A stretch of 64,000 bases of DNA from Fischerella sp. PCC 9605. Its GTDB lineage: Bacteria; Cyanobacteriota; Cyanobacteriia; Cyanobacteriales; Nostocaceae. The notes under the pieces were generated by a model. The model saw only the letters and a list, made by a program, of their open reading frames with translations, made no database searches and had not been told where the DNA came from. The stretch's first letter is position 1. Every line of letters starts with the position of its first letter. The stretch spans positions 552,518 through 616,517 of the forward strand of contig NZ_KI912148.1 in NCBI RefSeq assembly GCF_000517105.1. The letters are read 5' to 3'. The translations under genes were made by a program, and so were the position numbers. Below are positions 14,269 to 61,488 of the stretch, piece after piece.

Positions 14269-15477
14269 TCATCCTAGCAATACTGGAACCATATCCGTTT
14301 CTTCCCAAGGCACAATTCCCAAATCCATTCTGCCAACGTGACCGTAAACAGCCAGTTTTCTGTAAAATCCACCTTTGACGATCGCGCTCAGCAATCTCAA
14401 ATTAAATTTCTTGATAATTCCCGCTAGTCGGAAATCAAAATGCCTTTCCAAAAGTACCGTAATTTCTTCATCAGAAATTTTGCCTGTACCGAAAGTTTCT
14501 ACCTGAATGCTGACAGGTCTAGCCAGTCCAATCGAGTAGGCTAGCTGCACTTCACATTCTTCTGCTAAACCAGCCGCTACAATATTTTTGGCTGCATATC
14601 GGGCAGCATAAGCACCAACTCTGTCTATCCGCGTCGGGTCTTTACCACTTAAAGCTGCGCCACTATGCCGAGAATAACCTCCGTAAGTATCTATAGCATT
14701 CTTCCTACCAGTTAACCCTGAATGCACGGAGGGGCCACCAATTGTGAAAGGCTGGTCAAAGTCGATGAGGATTCTCGTCTTTTCATCGGGCTTTATTTCT
14801 TCGTTTTCAACTTCAAAGACAGAATCGATAATTGTTTCTTTAATCTCTTCCCGGAGTATTTTTTCATCAGCTAAATCTAATTGTGACTGCCTGTTTTGAC
14901 TCGCCAGAATAGAGATACTGTGGATTCTGTAGGGCTGGCGATCGCGATATTCAATTCCAACTTGAGTTTTGCCATCAGGTGCAATGTATGGGAGTATTTT
15001 CTCCTGCCGTACGGCGGTTAGTCGCCTTGCTAGTTGGTGTGCCAACCAAATCGGAAGCGGCATGAAAGCAGGGGTTTGATTGCAGGCAAAACCAAAGACC
15101 GTCACTTGATCGGTAACAGGAATTAACTCTATCTCTTCGTCGGATAATCTTTTTGCATCCCAATAACGGTAGCTGTGAGATGTTAATTCCTTCACGCTGG
15201 TGACAATACTACAGGTTTTAGCATTAAAATCAGGCTCATCATAACCGACCTGCTTAATTACCTGTCTGGCTGTTTTTGTGAAATCTACAACTGCATCAGA
15301 TTCAAATCTGGCAGCAATGAATACAATTGCAGTGGCTACAGCACATTCTGCAATTACCCTAGAATAAGGATCTCGCTGTAGAAATTTATCTACAATTGCA
15401 TCGCTGATTTGGTCGCAAAGTTTATCCGGGTGTCCTTCAGTGACGGACTCGGAACTGAACATGAAATCTTTTTTCAT
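14269..15477 (-). CDS. metK: Divergent S-adenosylmethionine synthetase paralogue
   Basis: This 402-residue protein aligns throughout with methionine adenosyltransferase. SSESVTEGHPDKLCDQISDA, TDQVTVFGFA, GLTGRKNAIDTYGG, SGKDPTRIDR, and AAYGH-like AVYGHVGRMD are all recognisable. It differs from the usual enzyme at key places. The GGPxGDxG motif reads GGPSVHSG, so the Asp equivalent to E. coli Asp238 is His. The GGEITT segment with the methionine-contacting Glu reads AARFES. The catalytic His and Asp of the N-terminal motif remain, as do Lys and Arg of TGRK. A standard metK is probably elsewhere in the genome, making this a second form with altered or lost activity. The ribosome-binding site is weak. 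Confidence 0.8.
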   Translation of the reverse strand: MKKDFMFSSESVTEGHPDKLCDQISDAIVDKFLQRDPYSRVIAECAVATAIVFIAARFESDAVVDFTKTARQVIKQVGYDEPDFNAKTCSIVTSVKELTSHSYRYWDAKRLSDEEIELIPVTDQVTVFGFACNQTPAFMPLPIWLAHQLARRLTAVRQEKILPYIAPDGKTQVGIEYRDRQPYRIHSISILASQNRQSQLDLADEKILREEIKETIIDSVFEVENEEIKPDEKTRILIDFDQPFTIGGPSVHSGLTGRKNAIDTYGGYSRHSGAALSGKDPTRIDRVGAYAARYAAKNIVAAGLAEECEVQLAYSIGLARPVSIQVETFGTGKISDEEITVLLERHFDFRLAGIIKKFNLRLLSAIVKGGFYRKLAVYGHVGRMDLGIVPWEETDMVPVLLG

Positions 15478-15643: not shown

Positions 15644-18600
15644 TTAATAGGAGACGACAGCAACAGTTTGCGGTTCCACCTCCTGGTGTTCTGTTTCTAA
15701 ATGTGCGATCGCAGCAACATCGTTGTTGCTAGCAGGAAGTAGACGGGTGGAGTTGTTATCTCCTTGCAGATACTTTGTCGTCAGTTCTTTTCTGCCTTCA
15801 TTCACTAAGAATGGAACTACGGCGCTACTGCCGATCACCGCAGCATCAACGAGTCCGATCGGAGCGATTTGCAATAGACCTTTTAGTCCCGGCACGGTTG
15901 CAGCTAGTATCTGGAGAACGAAGGAACCACCAAGCGCAATATTCAAGTATTTATTGGCTGGCAGTTTTTGCTTGCTGAATATGCTGTGATTCTGGGAACG
16001 ACAGCTGAGAGTGTGCAGCAGCTGAGCCATTGTCAAGCTCATGAAACCGATAGTACTTGCCTGTGGCCCGATACCATAACGTTTGATACCATACCAGTAG
16101 GCTGCTAAAGCACTGGCAGACAATGCCGCTGACTCTAGAATAATTCTCTTAAAGTCAGAACCCTTGATAATCGGTTCCTTGGGATCGCGGGGTGGCATGA
16201 GTAGCACATCGGGTTCCGGTGCTTCCATTGCTAAAGCCAGCGCTGGGAATATGTCTGTGATTAAGTTCAGCCACAACAGTTGTATAGCTGTCATCGGATG
16301 ACCAATACCAGCTGTCGTCGCTGCTAACATAACCATGATTTCGCTGGTGTTTGTAGACAGCAGGAAATGGACGGACTTTCTGATGTTGTTATAGATTGTC
16401 CGACCGTGGCTAACGGCAACAATCATGGTTTCGAGGTTGTCATCTTCCAGCACTACATCGGCGACTTCGCGGGCAACATCTGTTCCCGTATGCCCCATCG
16501 CAATACCCACATCAGCAGCTTTTAAGGCAGGAGCATCATTAATGCCATCACCTGTCATGGCAACAACCTTGCCACTACCCTGTAACGCTTGCACTACTTG
16601 CAGTTTGTTGGCAGGGCTAATCCGGGCAAAGACATGGACGCGATGCAAGAGTCCCTTCATCACTTCGGGATCGATGTTACTCAAGTGCGTGGAATCGAGA
16701 ATTTGCAGTTGTTCGCCCTTGCTCAGATTCAATTCTTTGCCGATGGCGTAGGCAGTTGGGCTTTGATCGCCAGTAATCATCACCGTGTCGATGCCAGCTT
16801 GATGGAAGTCTCCCATCAATCCTTTTACGCCATTTCTGACGGGATCGATCATGCCAACCAGTCCCAGCCAGATCAAGTCATCGCGAGTATGGAGACCATC
16901 GCAGTCATCAAGCTGGTAAGCAGCTCCTAATACCCGCAGCGCCTTGCCTGCCATGTCCTCGTTTTCGTTTTCGATGGCTAGCCTGTCTGCCTCTGTGAGC
17001 GGAACTTTGTGTCCATTCTTGATTTGAGCGCTGCACAGACTTAAAACTTCTGATGGACTACCTTTGACGGCAATCAGGTTTTGCCGCTCATCGGGAGTGG
17101 CGTGCAGCGTCGTCATGTAATTGCGTTCTTGGGAGCGGTGGCTGATTTTCAGTCGTGGGTAATTTGCCCGCAGACTGATAACGTTTACACCTCCCTTGAT
17201 AGCAACATCAATGAGTGCGTTTTCAGTGGCAGAACCTCTGACGATGTACTCATCGCCTTCTTGCTCTACTTCACTTTCATTGCACAGCGTCAAGACATGA
17301 ATCAGCTTTAAGAGCTGTTCGTTTTCATAAGGATTAATGGGTTCGTGTCCTACCAACAATTGGTCATGACCTACTTGGATGCACTTGTTATCCGTACACA
17401 GTTCTACAGCTGTCATCCGGTTCGCAGTAATGGTTCCGGTTTTATCCATGCAGATTGTCTGTACGGAACCAAGGGTTTCTACCGCATCCAAACGGCGGAT
17501 GAGGACGTTATGCTTCCTCATATTGGCGATCCCCAACGCCAAAGTTGTAGTAGCAACTGTGGGCAAACCTTCGGGAACTGCCGCCACTGCTAGGGAGATA
17601 GAAGCCTTGAGCATCTGCAATAGACCATTGCCACGCCACAGTCCAATACCAAAGAATAAGGCACAAACTGCCCCTGATACCATGACAAGCTGGCTACCTG
17701 CTTGGTCTAGTTGTTTCTCCATCGGAGTTTCGGGCATGGTGGCTTCACTGACCATCATTTGGATCTTGCCCATCTCCGTATATTTGCCAGTCGCCACTAC
17801 TACCGCAGTTCCCTGCCCACCAGTTACTAGTGTCCCCATGTAAACCATGTTATGGCGATCGCCCAAGGGAACATTTTCGCCGATGAGAGTATGGGCGGAT
17901 TTGGTTACAGGCATACTCTCACCCGTCAGCGCTGACTCATCTATGCTCAAACGCTGTGCTTCTAAGAGTCTGGCGTCTGCTGGTACGTAACTGCCGGGTT
18001 TAAGAACTAGAATATCCCCAACAACAATTTCGTGGGCGCTGATTTCTTGAATGCTGCCATCGCGGATTGTAAATGCCGTGGGATTAACTAGGTTCTTCAG
18101 CGAGCGAATCACCTTTTCGGAATTGCTTTCTGTAGCGTAACCAATGGCGGCATTGATGACTACAACCCCCATAATTACCACAGCATCGACCAAGCCTCCG
18201 GTAGCAACTGACACACCAGCTGCAACTGCCAAAAGTCCTACGGGCAAGGATTTAAACTGGTCAATAAACATACTCAACCCGGAGCGAGGCTCGGCTTCCG
18301 GTAAAGTATTTGGCCCGTATTTCTTCAGTCTTTCTTGTGCTTTCTTGCTAGATAAACCTGATGCTTTGGAAGTTTTTAACTCAGCAATAACTACATCAGT
18401 TTCTTTGAGATGCCAAGCTACAATTTCTTGCTGAGGAGCATCATTTGTCAGCTTTTGTTGACGATTATTTGATTTTTTGTTGCTTGCAGGTAAATTTTTC
18501 GCCTTTTTCTCCGCTCGGTCAATCTTGTTTGCTGTGCCGAGTGTTATAGAGTGCTGACTTTGCTTTGCATACTCTATGACTAGGCGTTCAATTTGTGCAG

Positions 18601-18850
18601 CGATCGCCGAAGCATTATGTCCTGGCTGGTAGATTACCAGAACATTACCAGTTGACGGGTTAGCACTCACTTGGGTGATGCCTTCTGCCCCTGACAACTC
18701 CAACTCTAGGTATTTCTTAAGAGCCTCCGAACCTTGCAGCCCATTAATCTTATACCTAGCCCTCCCCTCCACAGCAGTATGCAATGCCTTAACAAGAGCA
18801 TTCCTCCTGCGACGGGAGACGTTGCAGTGATTTTTCATTTCTTCATTCAA
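15644..18850 (-). CDS. Cation-transporting P-type ATPase (P2 type) with extra N-terminal domain
   Basis: This 1068-residue membrane pump shows all P-type landmarks: actuator-domain TGES in ALTGESMPV, phosphorylation site DKTGTIT, PEGLP in the fourth membrane helix, and hinge motif TGDGINDAP. PEGLP and NLITDIFPALALA place it with P2-type pumps for Ca2+ or related cations; the ion is not decided by the sequence. Residues about 1-105 are an added domain (HTAVEGRARYKINGL, TGNVLVIY) resembling a small ferredoxin-like metal-binding fold but without the CxxC pair. That same domain, and a segment of the third membrane helix region (KQLDQAG), recur in the PAP2 gene at 58316. It ends at a good terminator. 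Confidence 0.9.
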   Translation of the reverse strand: MNEEMKNHCNVSRRRRNALVKALHTAVEGRARYKINGLQGSEALKKYLELELSGAEGITQVSANPSTGNVLVIYQPGHNASAIAAQIERLVIEYAKQSQHSITLGTANKIDRAEKKAKNLPASNKKSNNRQQKLTNDAPQQEIVAWHLKETDVVIAELKTSKASGLSSKKAQERLKKYGPNTLPEAEPRSGLSMFIDQFKSLPVGLLAVAAGVSVATGGLVDAVVIMGVVVINAAIGYATESNSEKVIRSLKNLVNPTAFTIRDGSIQEISAHEIVVGDILVLKPGSYVPADARLLEAQRLSIDESALTGESMPVTKSAHTLIGENVPLGDRHNMVYMGTLVTGGQGTAVVVATGKYTEMGKIQMMVSEATMPETPMEKQLDQAGSQLVMVSGAVCALFFGIGLWRGNGLLQMLKASISLAVAAVPEGLPTVATTTLALGIANMRKHNVLIRRLDAVETLGSVQTICMDKTGTITANRMTAVELCTDNKCIQVGHDQLLVGHEPINPYENEQLLKLIHVLTLCNESEVEQEGDEYIVRGSATENALIDVAIKGGVNVISLRANYPRLKISHRSQERNYMTTLHATPDERQNLIAVKGSPSEVLSLCSAQIKNGHKVPLTEADRLAIENENEDMAGKALRVLGAAYQLDDCDGLHTRDDLIWLGLVGMIDPVRNGVKGLMGDFHQAGIDTVMITGDQSPTAYAIGKELNLSKGEQLQILDSTHLSNIDPEVMKGLLHRVHVFARISPANKLQVVQALQGSGKVVAMTGDGINDAPALKAADVGIAMGHTGTDVAREVADVVLEDDNLETMIVAVSHGRTIYNNIRKSVHFLLSTNTSEIMVMLAATTAGIGHPMTAIQLLWLNLITDIFPALALAMEAPEPDVLLMPPRDPKEPIIKGSDFKRIILESAALSASALAAYWYGIKRYGIGPQASTIGFMSLTMAQLLHTLSCRSQNHSIFSKQKLPANKYLNIALGGSFVLQILAATVPGLKGLLQIAPIGLVDAAVIGSSAVVPFLVNEGRKELTTKYLQGDNNSTRLLPASNNDVAAIAHLETEHQEVEPQTVAVVSY

Positions 18851-58315: not shown

Positions 58316-59293
58316 ATGGGCACTCCTATTGATAATCTCCGCAATGATATTCCTTTGATTCGGGCAATACATACTGCTGTTAAAGGAAGAGCTAGATACA
58401 AGGTAAGTGGACTTCATGATTCGGAAGCTCTCAAAAGATACCTTGAATTGAGATTGTCAGAGGAGGAAATCATTGCACAAGCTCGTGCTAGCCATCTCAC
58501 AGGCAATATTCTTGTTATTTTCCATCCAGATAAAAGCCCGAATGCGATCGCCCTGCTTCTCCAAGAGATCGTTTTAGATTACACCAAACAAGCCCGAACA
58601 TCACCTGTTACTTCAACAGTAACAGGTTCATCTATTGCTAAGGTTCAGGAAAACCTGAAACAATTAGACCAAGCAGGCAATCGACTTGTTCTGGTATCAG
58701 TAGCTGTTGGTACCCTGATCTCTTGCACAGTACTACTGCGCGGATATGGACTTGATAAAGCCATTTTGTTAGCAATTCAGAAACTGCACACACCACTTCT
58801 CGATCGCATTATGCTTGGTGTCACTTTTCTGGGTGAGCCACTAGTTTTGCTGTTGGTTTGTTTGGGATTGGGAACAGGACTGCGCCATTATAAGCGTCGC
58901 TCCGAAATAACTACTTTGACCACAGCTGCATTCGGTGCAATCAGCTTAAATTTTCTACTCAAAGAACTATTTTGTAGAGCACGTCCAGCATTGTGGAATT
59001 ATATTGTCAATGTGCGTCACTACAGCTTTCCTAGCGGTCATGCAATGGTGTCAATGGTAATTTATGGCTTTCTAGGCTATCTTCTTGCAAAACAATTTCC
59101 TCAATACCGAAGACGAATCTTTGCCTTGAGCGCTGTCTTAATTGTGGCGATCGGTTTTAGTCGGCTCTATCTGGGCGTACATTGGCCTACTGATGTGGTA
59201 GCTGGCTATGCCGCAGGTTTAGTATGGTTGACAGCCTGTATTCTTAGCTTGGAATTGGAGCAAAAATATCGCTTTTTAGGAGCTAGTGAGTAG
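58316..59293 (+). CDS. PAP2 phosphatase fused to segments of a P-type ATPase
   Basis: This 325-residue protein has a C-terminal PAP2-type acid phosphatase domain (about residues 150-315). It shows all three signatures: KELFCRARP, SFPSGHAM and SRLYLGVHWPTD, with several membrane helices. It would dephosphorylate a lipid phosphate such as undecaprenyl diphosphate or phosphatidic acid. The N-terminal 100 residues (AIHTAVKGRARYKVSGL, TGNILVIFHPD) match the extra N-terminal domain of the P-type ATPase at 15644-18850. Residues about 118-140 (KQLDQAGNRLVLVS) then match a different, later part of that ATPase. ATG at 58316. I know of no precedent for this fusion. Confidence 0.85.
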   Translation: MGTPIDNLRNDIPLIRAIHTAVKGRARYKVSGLHDSEALKRYLELRLSEEEIIAQARASHLTGNILVIFHPDKSPNAIALLLQEIVLDYTKQARTSPVTSTVTGSSIAKVQENLKQLDQAGNRLVLVSVAVGTLISCTVLLRGYGLDKAILLAIQKLHTPLLDRIMLGVTFLGEPLVLLLVCLGLGTGLRHYKRRSEITTLTTAAFGAISLNFLLKELFCRARPALWNYIVNVRHYSFPSGHAMVSMVIYGFLGYLLAKQFPQYRRRIFALSAVLIVAIGFSRLYLGVHWPTDVVAGYAAGLVWLTACILSLELEQKYRFLGASE

Positions 59294-59362: not shown

Positions 59363-60532
59363 CTATCGTCGCGCCACCCGCATCAATAAAAATATACCGA
59401 TTCCTGTAAACACAAAGTTGGGCAACCAAGCCCCTATGAATGGAGAAAGGATATTTGCTTGTGCCATTGCACCAGCAATAAAGTGAAATAAATAATAACT
59501 AAATATAACTATAACGCTCACACCAAAGCTTGTGGCTCGCCCCGTACGTTGGGGTATAGTTCCCATTGCTGCACCCACTAAGCCAAAAACTACACAGACA
59601 AAAGGCAAGGAAATTCTTTGTTGAATCCGCACTTCTAGTTTGCGAATTTTTTGCTCATCTCCGCCAACACGTTCCAATTCTAATTGTTCTAACGATTGAG
59701 CAATACTCATCTCGTCGTAGTCGCGGCTTCTTTGTGCCACATCTAATGCTGTGCGGGGTAGTCTGAGTTGTTGTTTTTCAAATCGCAAAATGTTGCGATA
59801 GGAGCGGTCGGGGGCAACTAAATATATAGTACCGTTGTAGAAATCCCAGACATTTTGAGAAGCATTCCATTCGCCTGATTCTGCTACGACAATTTGATTC
59901 AAACCCTGCTGAGAACGATCAATAATTGTCAAGCCTTTCATCTGCTTGCCATCAAATTTGTCAGCGTAGAACAAGCGTGTTAATATTTTCTCCTTAGTAC
60001 CATCTTGTTGCTCAACACTGCGATATTCAGGATAAAAAATATTTTCCTGCTTAAATGTTGGCTTGTCTGATTTGAGTGCTTGGTCTAGGGTCAGAGATGC
60101 TTGGTAATTTGCTGCTGGTGCGATTTGCTCGTTAAACACAAATGTCAATCCTGTCACCATGAAACTCAACACTACAGCAGTTAAGACCATGCGATAGACA
60201 CTCACTCCACAACCACGCAGGGCAATCAATTCGCTTTCGCTAGCTAGACGACTGTAGGTCATCAAAGTAGCTAGCAGTGTGGACATGGGGAAGGCTAAAA
60301 CAATAAAATTGGGAAATTTTAATAAGAAAACTTTCAAGGCAATGCCTATTGGTAGCCCTGATTCTACTATTTTCCGTACTAAGTCAAATACGGCGTCAAT
60401 TGTGACACCCAGAGAAGAGAATGCCCCAACTCCAAACAAAAAAGGTGGCAATAATTCGCTCGCGAGGTAGCGATCCATTATGGAAAAGGGCAACAGCGAA
60501 TTGAGGGTGTAGAAAGATTTGTATTTAGCCAT
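59363..60532 (-). CDS. LptF/LptG-family LPS-export permease
   Basis: This 389-residue protein has three membrane helices near each end and a beta-rich periplasmic domain in the middle, the layout of YjgP/YjgQ proteins. MDRYLASELLPPFLFG, FPMSTLLATLMTYSRLASES and the C-terminal RRISLPF-like RISLPFVCVVFGLVGAAMG region are typical. It moves lipopolysaccharide to the outer membrane together with LptB. LptA and LptB genes follow upstream on the same strand. Cyanobacteria often have a single LptF/G-type protein. An upstream start, MAKYKSFYTL, precedes the usual MDRYLA by 18 codons; the choice is open. Confidence 0.88.
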   Translation of the reverse strand: MAKYKSFYTLNSLLPFSIMDRYLASELLPPFLFGVGAFSSLGVTIDAVFDLVRKIVESGLPIGIALKVFLLKFPNFIVLAFPMSTLLATLMTYSRLASESELIALRGCGVSVYRMVLTAVVLSFMVTGLTFVFNEQIAPAANYQASLTLDQALKSDKPTFKQENIFYPEYRSVEQQDGTKEKILTRLFYADKFDGKQMKGLTIIDRSQQGLNQIVVAESGEWNASQNVWDFYNGTIYLVAPDRSYRNILRFEKQQLRLPRTALDVAQRSRDYDEMSIAQSLEQLELERVGGDEQKIRKLEVRIQQRISLPFVCVVFGLVGAAMGTIPQRTGRATSFGVSVIVIFSYYLFHFIAGAMAQANILSPFIGAWLPNFVFTGIGIFLLMRVARR

Positions 60533-60759: not shown

Positions 60760-61488
60760 CTAAACCTGAAAATTATCGCCCAAATAGTATTGCCGCACCA
60801 AGGGATTTTGATAGAGTTCGTCTGCATTGCCAGCAGCGAGGATTTGACCTTCGCGCATGATGTAGGCTCGATCTGTAATGGCAAGGGTTTCGCGGACGTT
60901 GTGATCTGTGATTAAGATCCCCATATGGCGATCGCGCAATTTTTCGATAATATGCTGAATTTCCGAAACTGCGATTGGGTCAACTCCCGCAAAAGGTTCA
61001 TCTAAAAGTAAAAATTTCGGTCCTTCCCTACCAGCTGCTAATGCTCTTGCCAATTCTGTCCGGCGTCGCTCACCTCCCGATAATTGAATTCCTTTGCTAT
61101 TAACCACTTTTTCCAAACGAAACTCTTGCAATAATGTTTCCAACCGCTTTGGCCACTCCCAACGTGGCACATTAGTTTGCTCTAGCACCAACAGAATATT
61201 ATCCCGCACTGACAGCTGCCGAAAAACACTCGCTTCCTGTGCTAGATAACCAATGCCCAATCGCGCCCTTTTATGCATTGGCAGTGAAGTAATATTATCG
61301 TGATCTAGCCATACAGTTCCCCGCTCGGGTTTTTCCAGACCTGTGGCTATGTAGAAAGTCGTTGTTTTACCAGCACCGTTCGGGCCAAGTAATCCGACAA
61401 TTTCACCTTGGGCAACAGAAAGGTTGACGCGATTGACAACCGCTCGCCTGCCATAAGATTTGTGAATATTCTCTAGGACAATTTTCAC
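60760..61488 (-). CDS. lptB: LPS-export ABC transporter ATP-binding protein
   Basis: This 242-residue ABC ATPase has Walker A LLGPNGAGKTTTFY, Q-loop IGYLAQEAS, signature LSGGERRRTELARAL, Walker B FLLLDEPFAGVDP and switch His in ITDHNVRETL, with the LptB-specific ending AYIMREGQILAAG. It powers lipopolysaccharide export with the LptF/G permease. The lptA-like gene lies upstream on the same strand and the LptF/G gene downstream, although both gaps hold long repeat arrays, so co-transcription is likely but not certain. ATG at 61488. Confidence 0.93.
   Translation of the reverse strand: MKIVLENIHKSYGRRAVVNRVNLSVAQGEIVGLLGPNGAGKTTTFYIATGLEKPERGTVWLDHDNITSLPMHKRARLGIGYLAQEASVFRQLSVRDNILLVLEQTNVPRWEWPKRLETLLQEFRLEKVVNSKGIQLSGGERRRTELARALAAGREGPKFLLLDEPFAGVDPIAVSEIQHIIEKLRDRHMGILITDHNVRETLAITDRAYIMREGQILAAGNADELYQNPLVRQYYLGDNFQV

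Follow-up and report, generated by a model that had tools for sequence, protein, structure and literature searches.

The window, a stretch of 64,000 nucleotides from the cyanobacterium Fischerella sp. PCC 9605 (contig NZ_KI912148.1), carries a gene whose product joins an N-terminal HMA_2-like domain to a PAP2 lipid phosphatase domain. At a distance of 40 kb it also carries the gene of a P-type ATPase with an HMA_2 domain at its own N-terminus (Table 1). The genome has a size of 8.08 Mb, with 12 HMA_2 matches. According to Pfam, PAP2 (PF01569) reaches 82.3 bits in the phosphatase for a cut-off of 27.2. HMA_2 (PF19991) scores 25.5 bits there for a cut-off of 30, a value exceeded in the window ATPase (32.3 bits) and in two fused proteins of relatives, L308 (32.8 bits) and L179 (37.4 bits). 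The NCBIfam search gave the window phosphatase no name above cut-off, the SepP undecaprenyl-diphosphatase model (NF047884) scoring 50 bits, below its curated cut-off of 250. The ATPase obtains its best scores with Ca-type models, below their equivalog cut-offs (TIGR01522: 653 of 798 bits). Two genes convergent to the fusion gene follow at 59363-60532 (-) and 60760-61488 (-), which are presumed, by look alone, to encode an LptF/LptG-like permease and an LptB-like ABC ATPase, respectively.

Table 1. Features of the fusion gene and of the HMA_2-bearing ATPase gene in the window.
Feature	Position	Strand	Description	Basis
HMA_2-PAP2 fusion gene	58316..59293	+	325 aa, ATG start	ORF reading, Pfam, BLASTP
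HMA_2-like domain, residues 14-92	58355..58591	+	homologous to ATPase N-terminus; probably cytoplasmic	Pfam, BLASTP, fold comparison
Linker, residues 93-114	58592..58657	+	poorly conserved; putative remainder of the deleted ATPase portion	identity 0.25; pLDDT <50 at 96-113
ATPase M3-derived segment, residues 115-146	58658..58753	+	predicted present first membrane helix of the phosphatase	BLASTP, M3 HMM, model
PAP2 lipid phosphatase domain, residues 147-325	58754..59290	+	closest unfused PAP2 homologous from here	Pfam, alignment, tree
PAP2 motif C1 K-x6-RP, residues 216-224	58961..58987	+		invariant columns; motif count
PAP2 motif C2 PSGH, residues 239-242	59030..59041	+		invariant columns; motif count
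PAP2 motif C3 SR-x5-H-x3-D, residues 282-293	59159..59194	+		invariant columns; motif count
Type II (Ca-type) P-type ATPase with N-terminal HMA_2	15644..18850	-	1068 aa; probable living relative of the donor of the fusion front	
ATPase HMA_2 domain, residues 17-96	18563..18802	-		Pfam, alignment
ATPase M3 segment matching the fusion, residues 372-411	17618..17737	-		BLASTP, alignment, M3 HMM

Two Matches to a P-Type ATPase

The initial annotation had described the phosphatase as carrying two separate segments of this ATPase, explained by an internally deleted ATPase gene joined to a PAP2 domain. Both likenesses are found by BLASTP. The N-terminus of the phosphatase aligns with the N-terminal extension of the pump (residues 14-123 against 19-126, 44% identity, E 6e-25), and a second segment (115-146 against 379-410, 59% identity, E 2e-5) falls on the third membrane helix (M3), which had been placed some 270 residues further on. 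The two blocks are collinear, with a spacing that is larger by about 264 residues in the ATPase than in the phosphatase. Among the membrane and actuator parts of the pump, M3 alone is kept in the window protein.

A set of 1,956 distinct ORFs from the loci compared was scored with an M3 HMM made from 36 ATPase segments. The 36 ATPases came on top, followed by 21 fused proteins (E 1.7e-12 to 0.33), the first unrelated ORF appearing at E 2.1. Three unfused PAP2 proteins scored E 3.9-8.2 and one more fused protein only E 5.9, while no score within E 10 was obtained with this HMM for the remaining fused proteins. PAP2 relatives holding the segment with no link to ATPases were not seen: similarity to the nearest unfused relatives starts only at residue 144-146, and the best value of an unfused protein was E 3.9. 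The absence of the usual CxxC pair, noticed at the outset in the window protein, extends to all 58 fused proteins, out of 59, in which a motif allowed the HMA_2 part to be located, and to the first 100 residues of all 36 ATPases.

Fused Proteins Retaining More of the Pump

Several relatives, here called INTERMEDIATE forms, retain more ATPase parts than the window protein. The longest one (L255/L308, from G506) has 572 aa and comprises HMA_2, M1-M2, the actuator, and M3, with the junction to PAP2 at the position seen in the window protein. Within this single ORF, Pfam reports HMA_2 (32.8 bits), Cation_ATPase_N (54.7), E1-E2_ATPase (90.7), and PAP2 (87.5), all above cut-offs, and the identity to the ATPase L133 is 58% over 367 columns. 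Its actuator displays FGKN in place of the TGES of the ATPases. G506, the sole source of this 572-aa form, is a draft genome of 240 contigs with 3% contamination. Near the gene, at L308 321-2748, are encoded a cysteine-rich DUF326 protein and a P-type ATPase of 684 aa whose N-terminus is rich in His, with one ORF between; this provides a weak hint, from one genome, of a metal context.

Other forms retain less. The 477-aa protein L179 of Cyanobacteria bacterium UBA11371 matches L133 over 248 columns (45% identity, E 1e-51), with a separate M3 match (E 7e-6) and the actuator core gone. M1-M2 is retained in L065 (G017) and L295 (G650), and L059 (G049) has kept the actuator tail and M3 (71 residues, 59% identity, E 2e-17 against the window ATPase). 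With piecewise ATPase HMMs, HMA_2 was detected in all of the 55 distinct fused proteins compared, M3 in 37 (the segment being missed by the HMM in the other 18), M1-M2 in four, the actuator tail in two, and the actuator front in one. The ATPase P-domain HMM matched 0/55, and the idea that the fused protein is still a pump is thereby ruled out.

These relatives, with a full or partial intervening ATPase part at the same joint, uphold the proposal of an internally deleted ATPase joined to PAP2. As regards the sets, those of 55 and 57 fused proteins were chosen by PSGHA and R-x-R-Y/F-K motifs, with L058 and L060 added by hand. Motif counts made on them are thus partly circular, and the 59 proteins picked by BLAST alone give the fair count.

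Joint and Membrane Topology

The nearest unfused PAP2 relatives, with about 60-73% identity, mostly begin to match the window protein at residue 142-146; for other unfused PAP2 proteins the start varies from about 107 to 154, later for partial matches. In the alignment, the four closest unfused proteins show a first helix of their own at the position of the ATPase-like helix of the fused ones. Together with the end of the ATPase match at residue 146, these observations place the joint at about residue 146/147, just where an aspartate (D147) is invariant in 22/22 aligned proteins. The M3 of the pump would therefore substitute for the phosphatase's own helix 1. Since M3 in P-type ATPases crosses the membrane outward from the inside, as does helix 1 in PAP2 enzymes, the swap of one for the other keeps the topology.

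Phylogeny and Order of Events

A tree of the PAP2 part alone, with 28 fused and 57 unfused sequences, places the fused ones on one side of a branch (support 99/96), adjoining four unfused PAP2 proteins of the same family (98/81). A larger tree built on a different sample, with 57 fused and 23 unfused sequences, lets the long-branched unfused L088 fall among the fused ones; a single fused clade appears there in 36% of bootstrap trees and is neither rejected nor proven by the AU test (p 0.45). Combined HMA_2 and M3 columns set the 28 fused proteins apart from 36 ATPases (93/96). From the 82 HMA_2 columns alone, no such separation of fused proteins and ATPases is obtained, one group being found in 16% of bootstrap trees. 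The N-terminal halves of the long forms L255, L179, L295, and L065 make up one group against the 36 ATPases (99/97); of these ATPases, the 13 of the window type (100/100) lie on the same side as this group.

The placement of L255 inside the fused group is ambiguous in the tree, and the order of fusion and then deletion thus rests on parsimony. The simplest history, and a likely one, is a single fusion with the front half of a pump and a pruning afterwards by several routes. The deletion-fusion scheme first put forward consequently stands for the origin and is refined for the order, the fusion most likely having come first and the deletions later, by lineage-specific routes.

Enzyme Part and Selection

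PAP2 enzymes are characterized by the motifs C1 (K-x6-RP), C2 (PSGH), and C3 (R-x5-H-x3-D). All three, with the R, H, and D of C3, are intact in the whole BLAST-only set of 59 fused proteins, seven of which lack the serine that precedes the C3 arginine. The HMA_2 part evolves under purifying selection. Over 10 pairs, dN/dS is 0.08-0.29 for HMA_2, 0.06-0.34 for PAP2, and 0.14-1.96 for the linker with M3, and mean pairwise identities among 57 fused proteins are 0.62, 0.64, 0.25, and 0.43 for HMA_2, PAP2, linker, and M3, respectively. Selection thus keeps the HMA_2 domain as well as the enzyme and is laxer elsewhere. Within HMA_2, H19, R25, R27, K29, and T62-G63-N64 are invariant in 22 rows. Classical heavy-metal-associated domains bind metal at a CxxC site, and the invariant residues together with the lack of CxxC suggest that this domain would not bind soft metals through cysteines.

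Distribution and a Small HMA_2 Protein

The search for other PAP2 proteins with this N-terminal domain led to fused genes in 95 of the 217 genomes of the window's family, in 24 genera counted by eye (among the matches listed). The calls were made from match span and open-frame length, in a list reaching about E 1.7e-42; G646 was counted as fused by its 406-aa open frame, and G710 (277 aa, residues 150-323) was excluded. Distinct fused ORFs read number 59. A class-wide search of 242 genomes (threshold 1e-22) found no fused copy outside the window's family; for the wider order, a fused copy is recorded in four genomes (G159, G506, G435, and G569), which may owe it either to transfer or to descent with loss. 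In the contig scan, the matches reaching into the HMA_2 part came from cyanobacterial records only (L172-L179), and the named relatives of the full-length protein, among them members of Brasilonema, Nostoc, and Hassallia, are cyanobacteria, both statements holding for the best 80 of 569 relatives. Among plasmid records, no place covered 80% of the window-protein query.

Directly upstream of the fusion, on the same strand and at 20-234 bases, 13 of 39 flanked loci have a gene whose product is a small HMA_2 protein of 153-254 aa. These loci correspond to 37 distinct ones (L313 = L179, L177 = L056), and the fused L058, L060, and L312 were missed by the motif filter. At E <= 1e-35, the small gene was found in 58 of the 217 family genomes and 17 of 56 genera. 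Its presence follows that of the fusion, with 57 of 95 fusion genomes against one of 122 others (among the matches listed; Fisher 2e-25, kinship ignored and counts made by hand). The sole genome with the small gene and without the fusion is G711, which is 85% complete. The small gene adjoins the fusion in 28 genomes and is located elsewhere in 29, so that linkage alone does not explain the co-occurrence. This pattern suggests that the small HMA_2 protein may be a partner of the fusion.

The window genome is one of 38 fusion genomes, out of 95, in which no small HMA_2 gene was found at E <= 1e-35 (among the matches listed). The sequence of this genome most similar to the small protein, at E 6.7e-20, is a protein of 354 aa (open frame of 363 aa). 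Encoded at L077 3984-5048 (G000:C6:1463983-1465047), it has an N-terminal HMA_2 match and a C-terminal part of no recognised family. Elsewhere in the same genome, a cluster (L078 4531-10955; G000:C6:2768530-2774954) includes HMA_2-like proteins, a 777-aa P-type ATPase with an HMA_2-like domain, a DUF5132 protein, and a further HMA_2 protein. In L174-L176, a cluster resembling it is found no more than about 5 kb away from the fusion.

Proposed Origin and Role

A chimeric origin, in which the front of an HMA_2-bearing type II ATPase was joined to a PAP2 gene, is nearly certain from the sequence comparisons. In an ancestor of Nostocaceae-type cyanobacteria, about residues 1-410 of the ATPase, ending just past M3, would have been attached immediately before the conserved aspartate that is residue 147 in the window protein. 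The M3 of the pump would have replaced the phosphatase's own first helix with the topology kept. The actuator domain and M1-M2 would have been lost later, in steps differing by lineage, until HMA_2 and one helix remained. Taken together with an active phosphatase, this origin is still probable. From family knowledge and the model, the present protein is predicted to be a six-helix membrane lipid phosphatase with the active site outside and HMA_2 in the cytoplasm. Candidate substrates would be of the phosphatidylglycerophosphate, phosphatidate, or undecaprenyl-PP kind.

As the initial annotation supposed, the phosphatase may have gained a sensing domain of the pump. The retained HMA_2 module may be used for regulation or docking, by pairing with other HMA_2 proteins, the small HMA_2 protein first and possibly HMA_2 ATPases. 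Phosphatase activity would thereby be tied to the ligand or state read by the HMA_2 of the pump. Such a partner role is quite conceivable, if somewhat short of probable. A more tentative extension is that filamentous cyanobacteria possess a two-protein switch made up of HMA_2-PAP2 and the small HMA_2 protein, in which the domain acquired from a Ca-type pump would read for the lipid phosphatase the ion or ligand that it reads for the pump. If this were true, one shared domain would set both cation transport and the turnover of envelope or membrane lipids, and the extant forms would represent a rarely visible series, leading from a chimera of pump front and phosphatase to a minimal regulated enzyme.

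Alternatively, the fusion might primarily be an accessory of the ATPase, with HMA_2 and M3 mimicking the pump so as to act on it or on the surrounding lipids. The gene order of G003 (small HMA_2 - HMA_2-PAP2 - HMA_2 ATPase - metK, on one strand) is in agreement with this, as is the occurrence of class-A (window-type) ATPases in 9 of 25 fusion genomes against 2 of 35 others (Fisher p 0.005, for a 60-genome sample with kinship ignored, counts made by hand, and two matches classed by identity alone). However, a type II HMA_2 ATPase stands beside the fusion in only one of the 39 loci and 40 kb away from it in the window, and no class-A ATPase was found in 16 of the 25 sampled fusion genomes, which makes a mainly accessory function doubtful.

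It is unlikely that the N-terminal part is a leftover helping only insertion or stability, in an ordinary PAP2 phosphatase whose HMA_2 has no regulatory task. Indeed, whereas the linker has decayed, nearly all other ATPase parts are gone in most lineages, and some of the same genomes hold close unfused relatives devoid of HMA_2, the domain is about as conserved as the enzyme (0.62 vs. 0.64, for 0.25 in the linker) with a low dN/dS and a set of invariant residues, and a second HMA_2 gene co-occurs with it.

As for the origin, the HMA_2 part could have come from a free-standing HMA_2 gene, the KQLDQAG helix resembling M3 by chance or convergence. Free-standing HMA_2 genes do exist and adjoin the fusion in many genomes, and the M3 match of the window protein covers only 32 residues. 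Nevertheless, the whole intervening ATPase part is present in L308/L255 and parts of it in L179, L295, L065, and L059, and the fused HMA_2 resembles the ATPase type (HTAVKGRARYK...TGN), unlike that of the small protein (HAIPGRIRFRIP). This very improbable origin is rejected on the intermediates, unless all of them are secondary ATPase insertions. An assembly or reading artefact, for which the origin of the longest form in one draft genome could be invoked, has a negligible probability and is rejected for the fusion as such by its recurrence in 95 of 217 family genomes (among the matches listed), the 59 distinct ORFs, the invariant D147, and several independent intermediates.

For the chimeric origin retained here, the series of fusions shows a new protein assembled from two unrelated ones. 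Fusion genes are usually visible only as finished products; in this case, an apparent early state, several half-pruned states, and a minimal state are encountered in living species with a fixed joint. The exchange of one inside-to-outside helix for another offers a plausible structural reason for viability. HMA_2 appears as a portable module, the function of which could be found through what the pump, the phosphatase, and the small partner share.

Relation to Known Systems

The families involved (PAP2, HMA_2, and P-type ATPases) are known ones, and the fusion is filed as a new domain architecture and not as a new enzyme class. In the open-access parts of the literature searched, no description of an HMA_2-PAP2 protein was found among the matches listed, which leaves its absence unproven, and PF19991 is not mentioned in the open-access literature searched. 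The nearest systems are unfused cyanobacterial PAP2 proteins, such as L068 (G000:C7:263402-263935), which shares the catalytic domain with the fusion (70% identity from residue 145) and differs from it by its own first helix and the lack of an HMA_2 Pfam match.

The predicted model of the window protein is moderate (mean pLDDT 79.4, pTM 0.56) and consistent with a joint at about residue 146/147. Its span 124-319, which includes the M3-derived helix, superimposes on the B. subtilis PAP2-type phosphatase YodM (5jki) with Z 19.5 and rmsd 3.0 over 187 residues (HMM E 1.6e-31), and the PAP2 fold is also shared with A. aeolicus LpxE (6ebu; HMM E 5.1e-10, Z 14.6). Matches to both are confined to the PAP2 part at 26-27% identity, and the substrate is not transferable from them. 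Model residues 23-87 are fitted by HMA-type folds: the ferredoxin-like fold is shared with classical HMA domains (CopZ, ATP7B, HMA7) at Z about 7-8 over about 64 residues, a range in which Z <8 may reflect a common arrangement only. Unlike these domains, the HMA_2 of the fusions has no CxxC (0/58), and metal binding is not to be assumed.

Type II ATPases with an N-terminal HMA_2 have in common with the fusions this domain and the M3 helix, and even the N-terminal half through M3 in L308, whereas the fusions lack the P domain (55/55 tested) and cannot pump. DedA-PAP2 bifunctional proteins, encountered only as annotations of plasmid matches, also combine PAP2 with another membrane protein, but the partner differs.

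A side observation concerns metK, the gene of S-adenosylmethionine synthetase, which follows the window ATPase at 14269-15477 (-). The window genome contains three metK copies, two of which adjoin its two HMA_2 type II ATPases, the second pair being formed by the ATPase at L080 5259-8264 and metK at G000:C9:196476-197654 (L080 begins at C9:188000). No published work on this pairing was found in the accessible parts of the papers searched. A metK match just after the ATPase was present in 18 of 20 further ATPase loci (L314-L333); of these 18, one is truncated where its contig ends and another (G026) shows only 31 residues.
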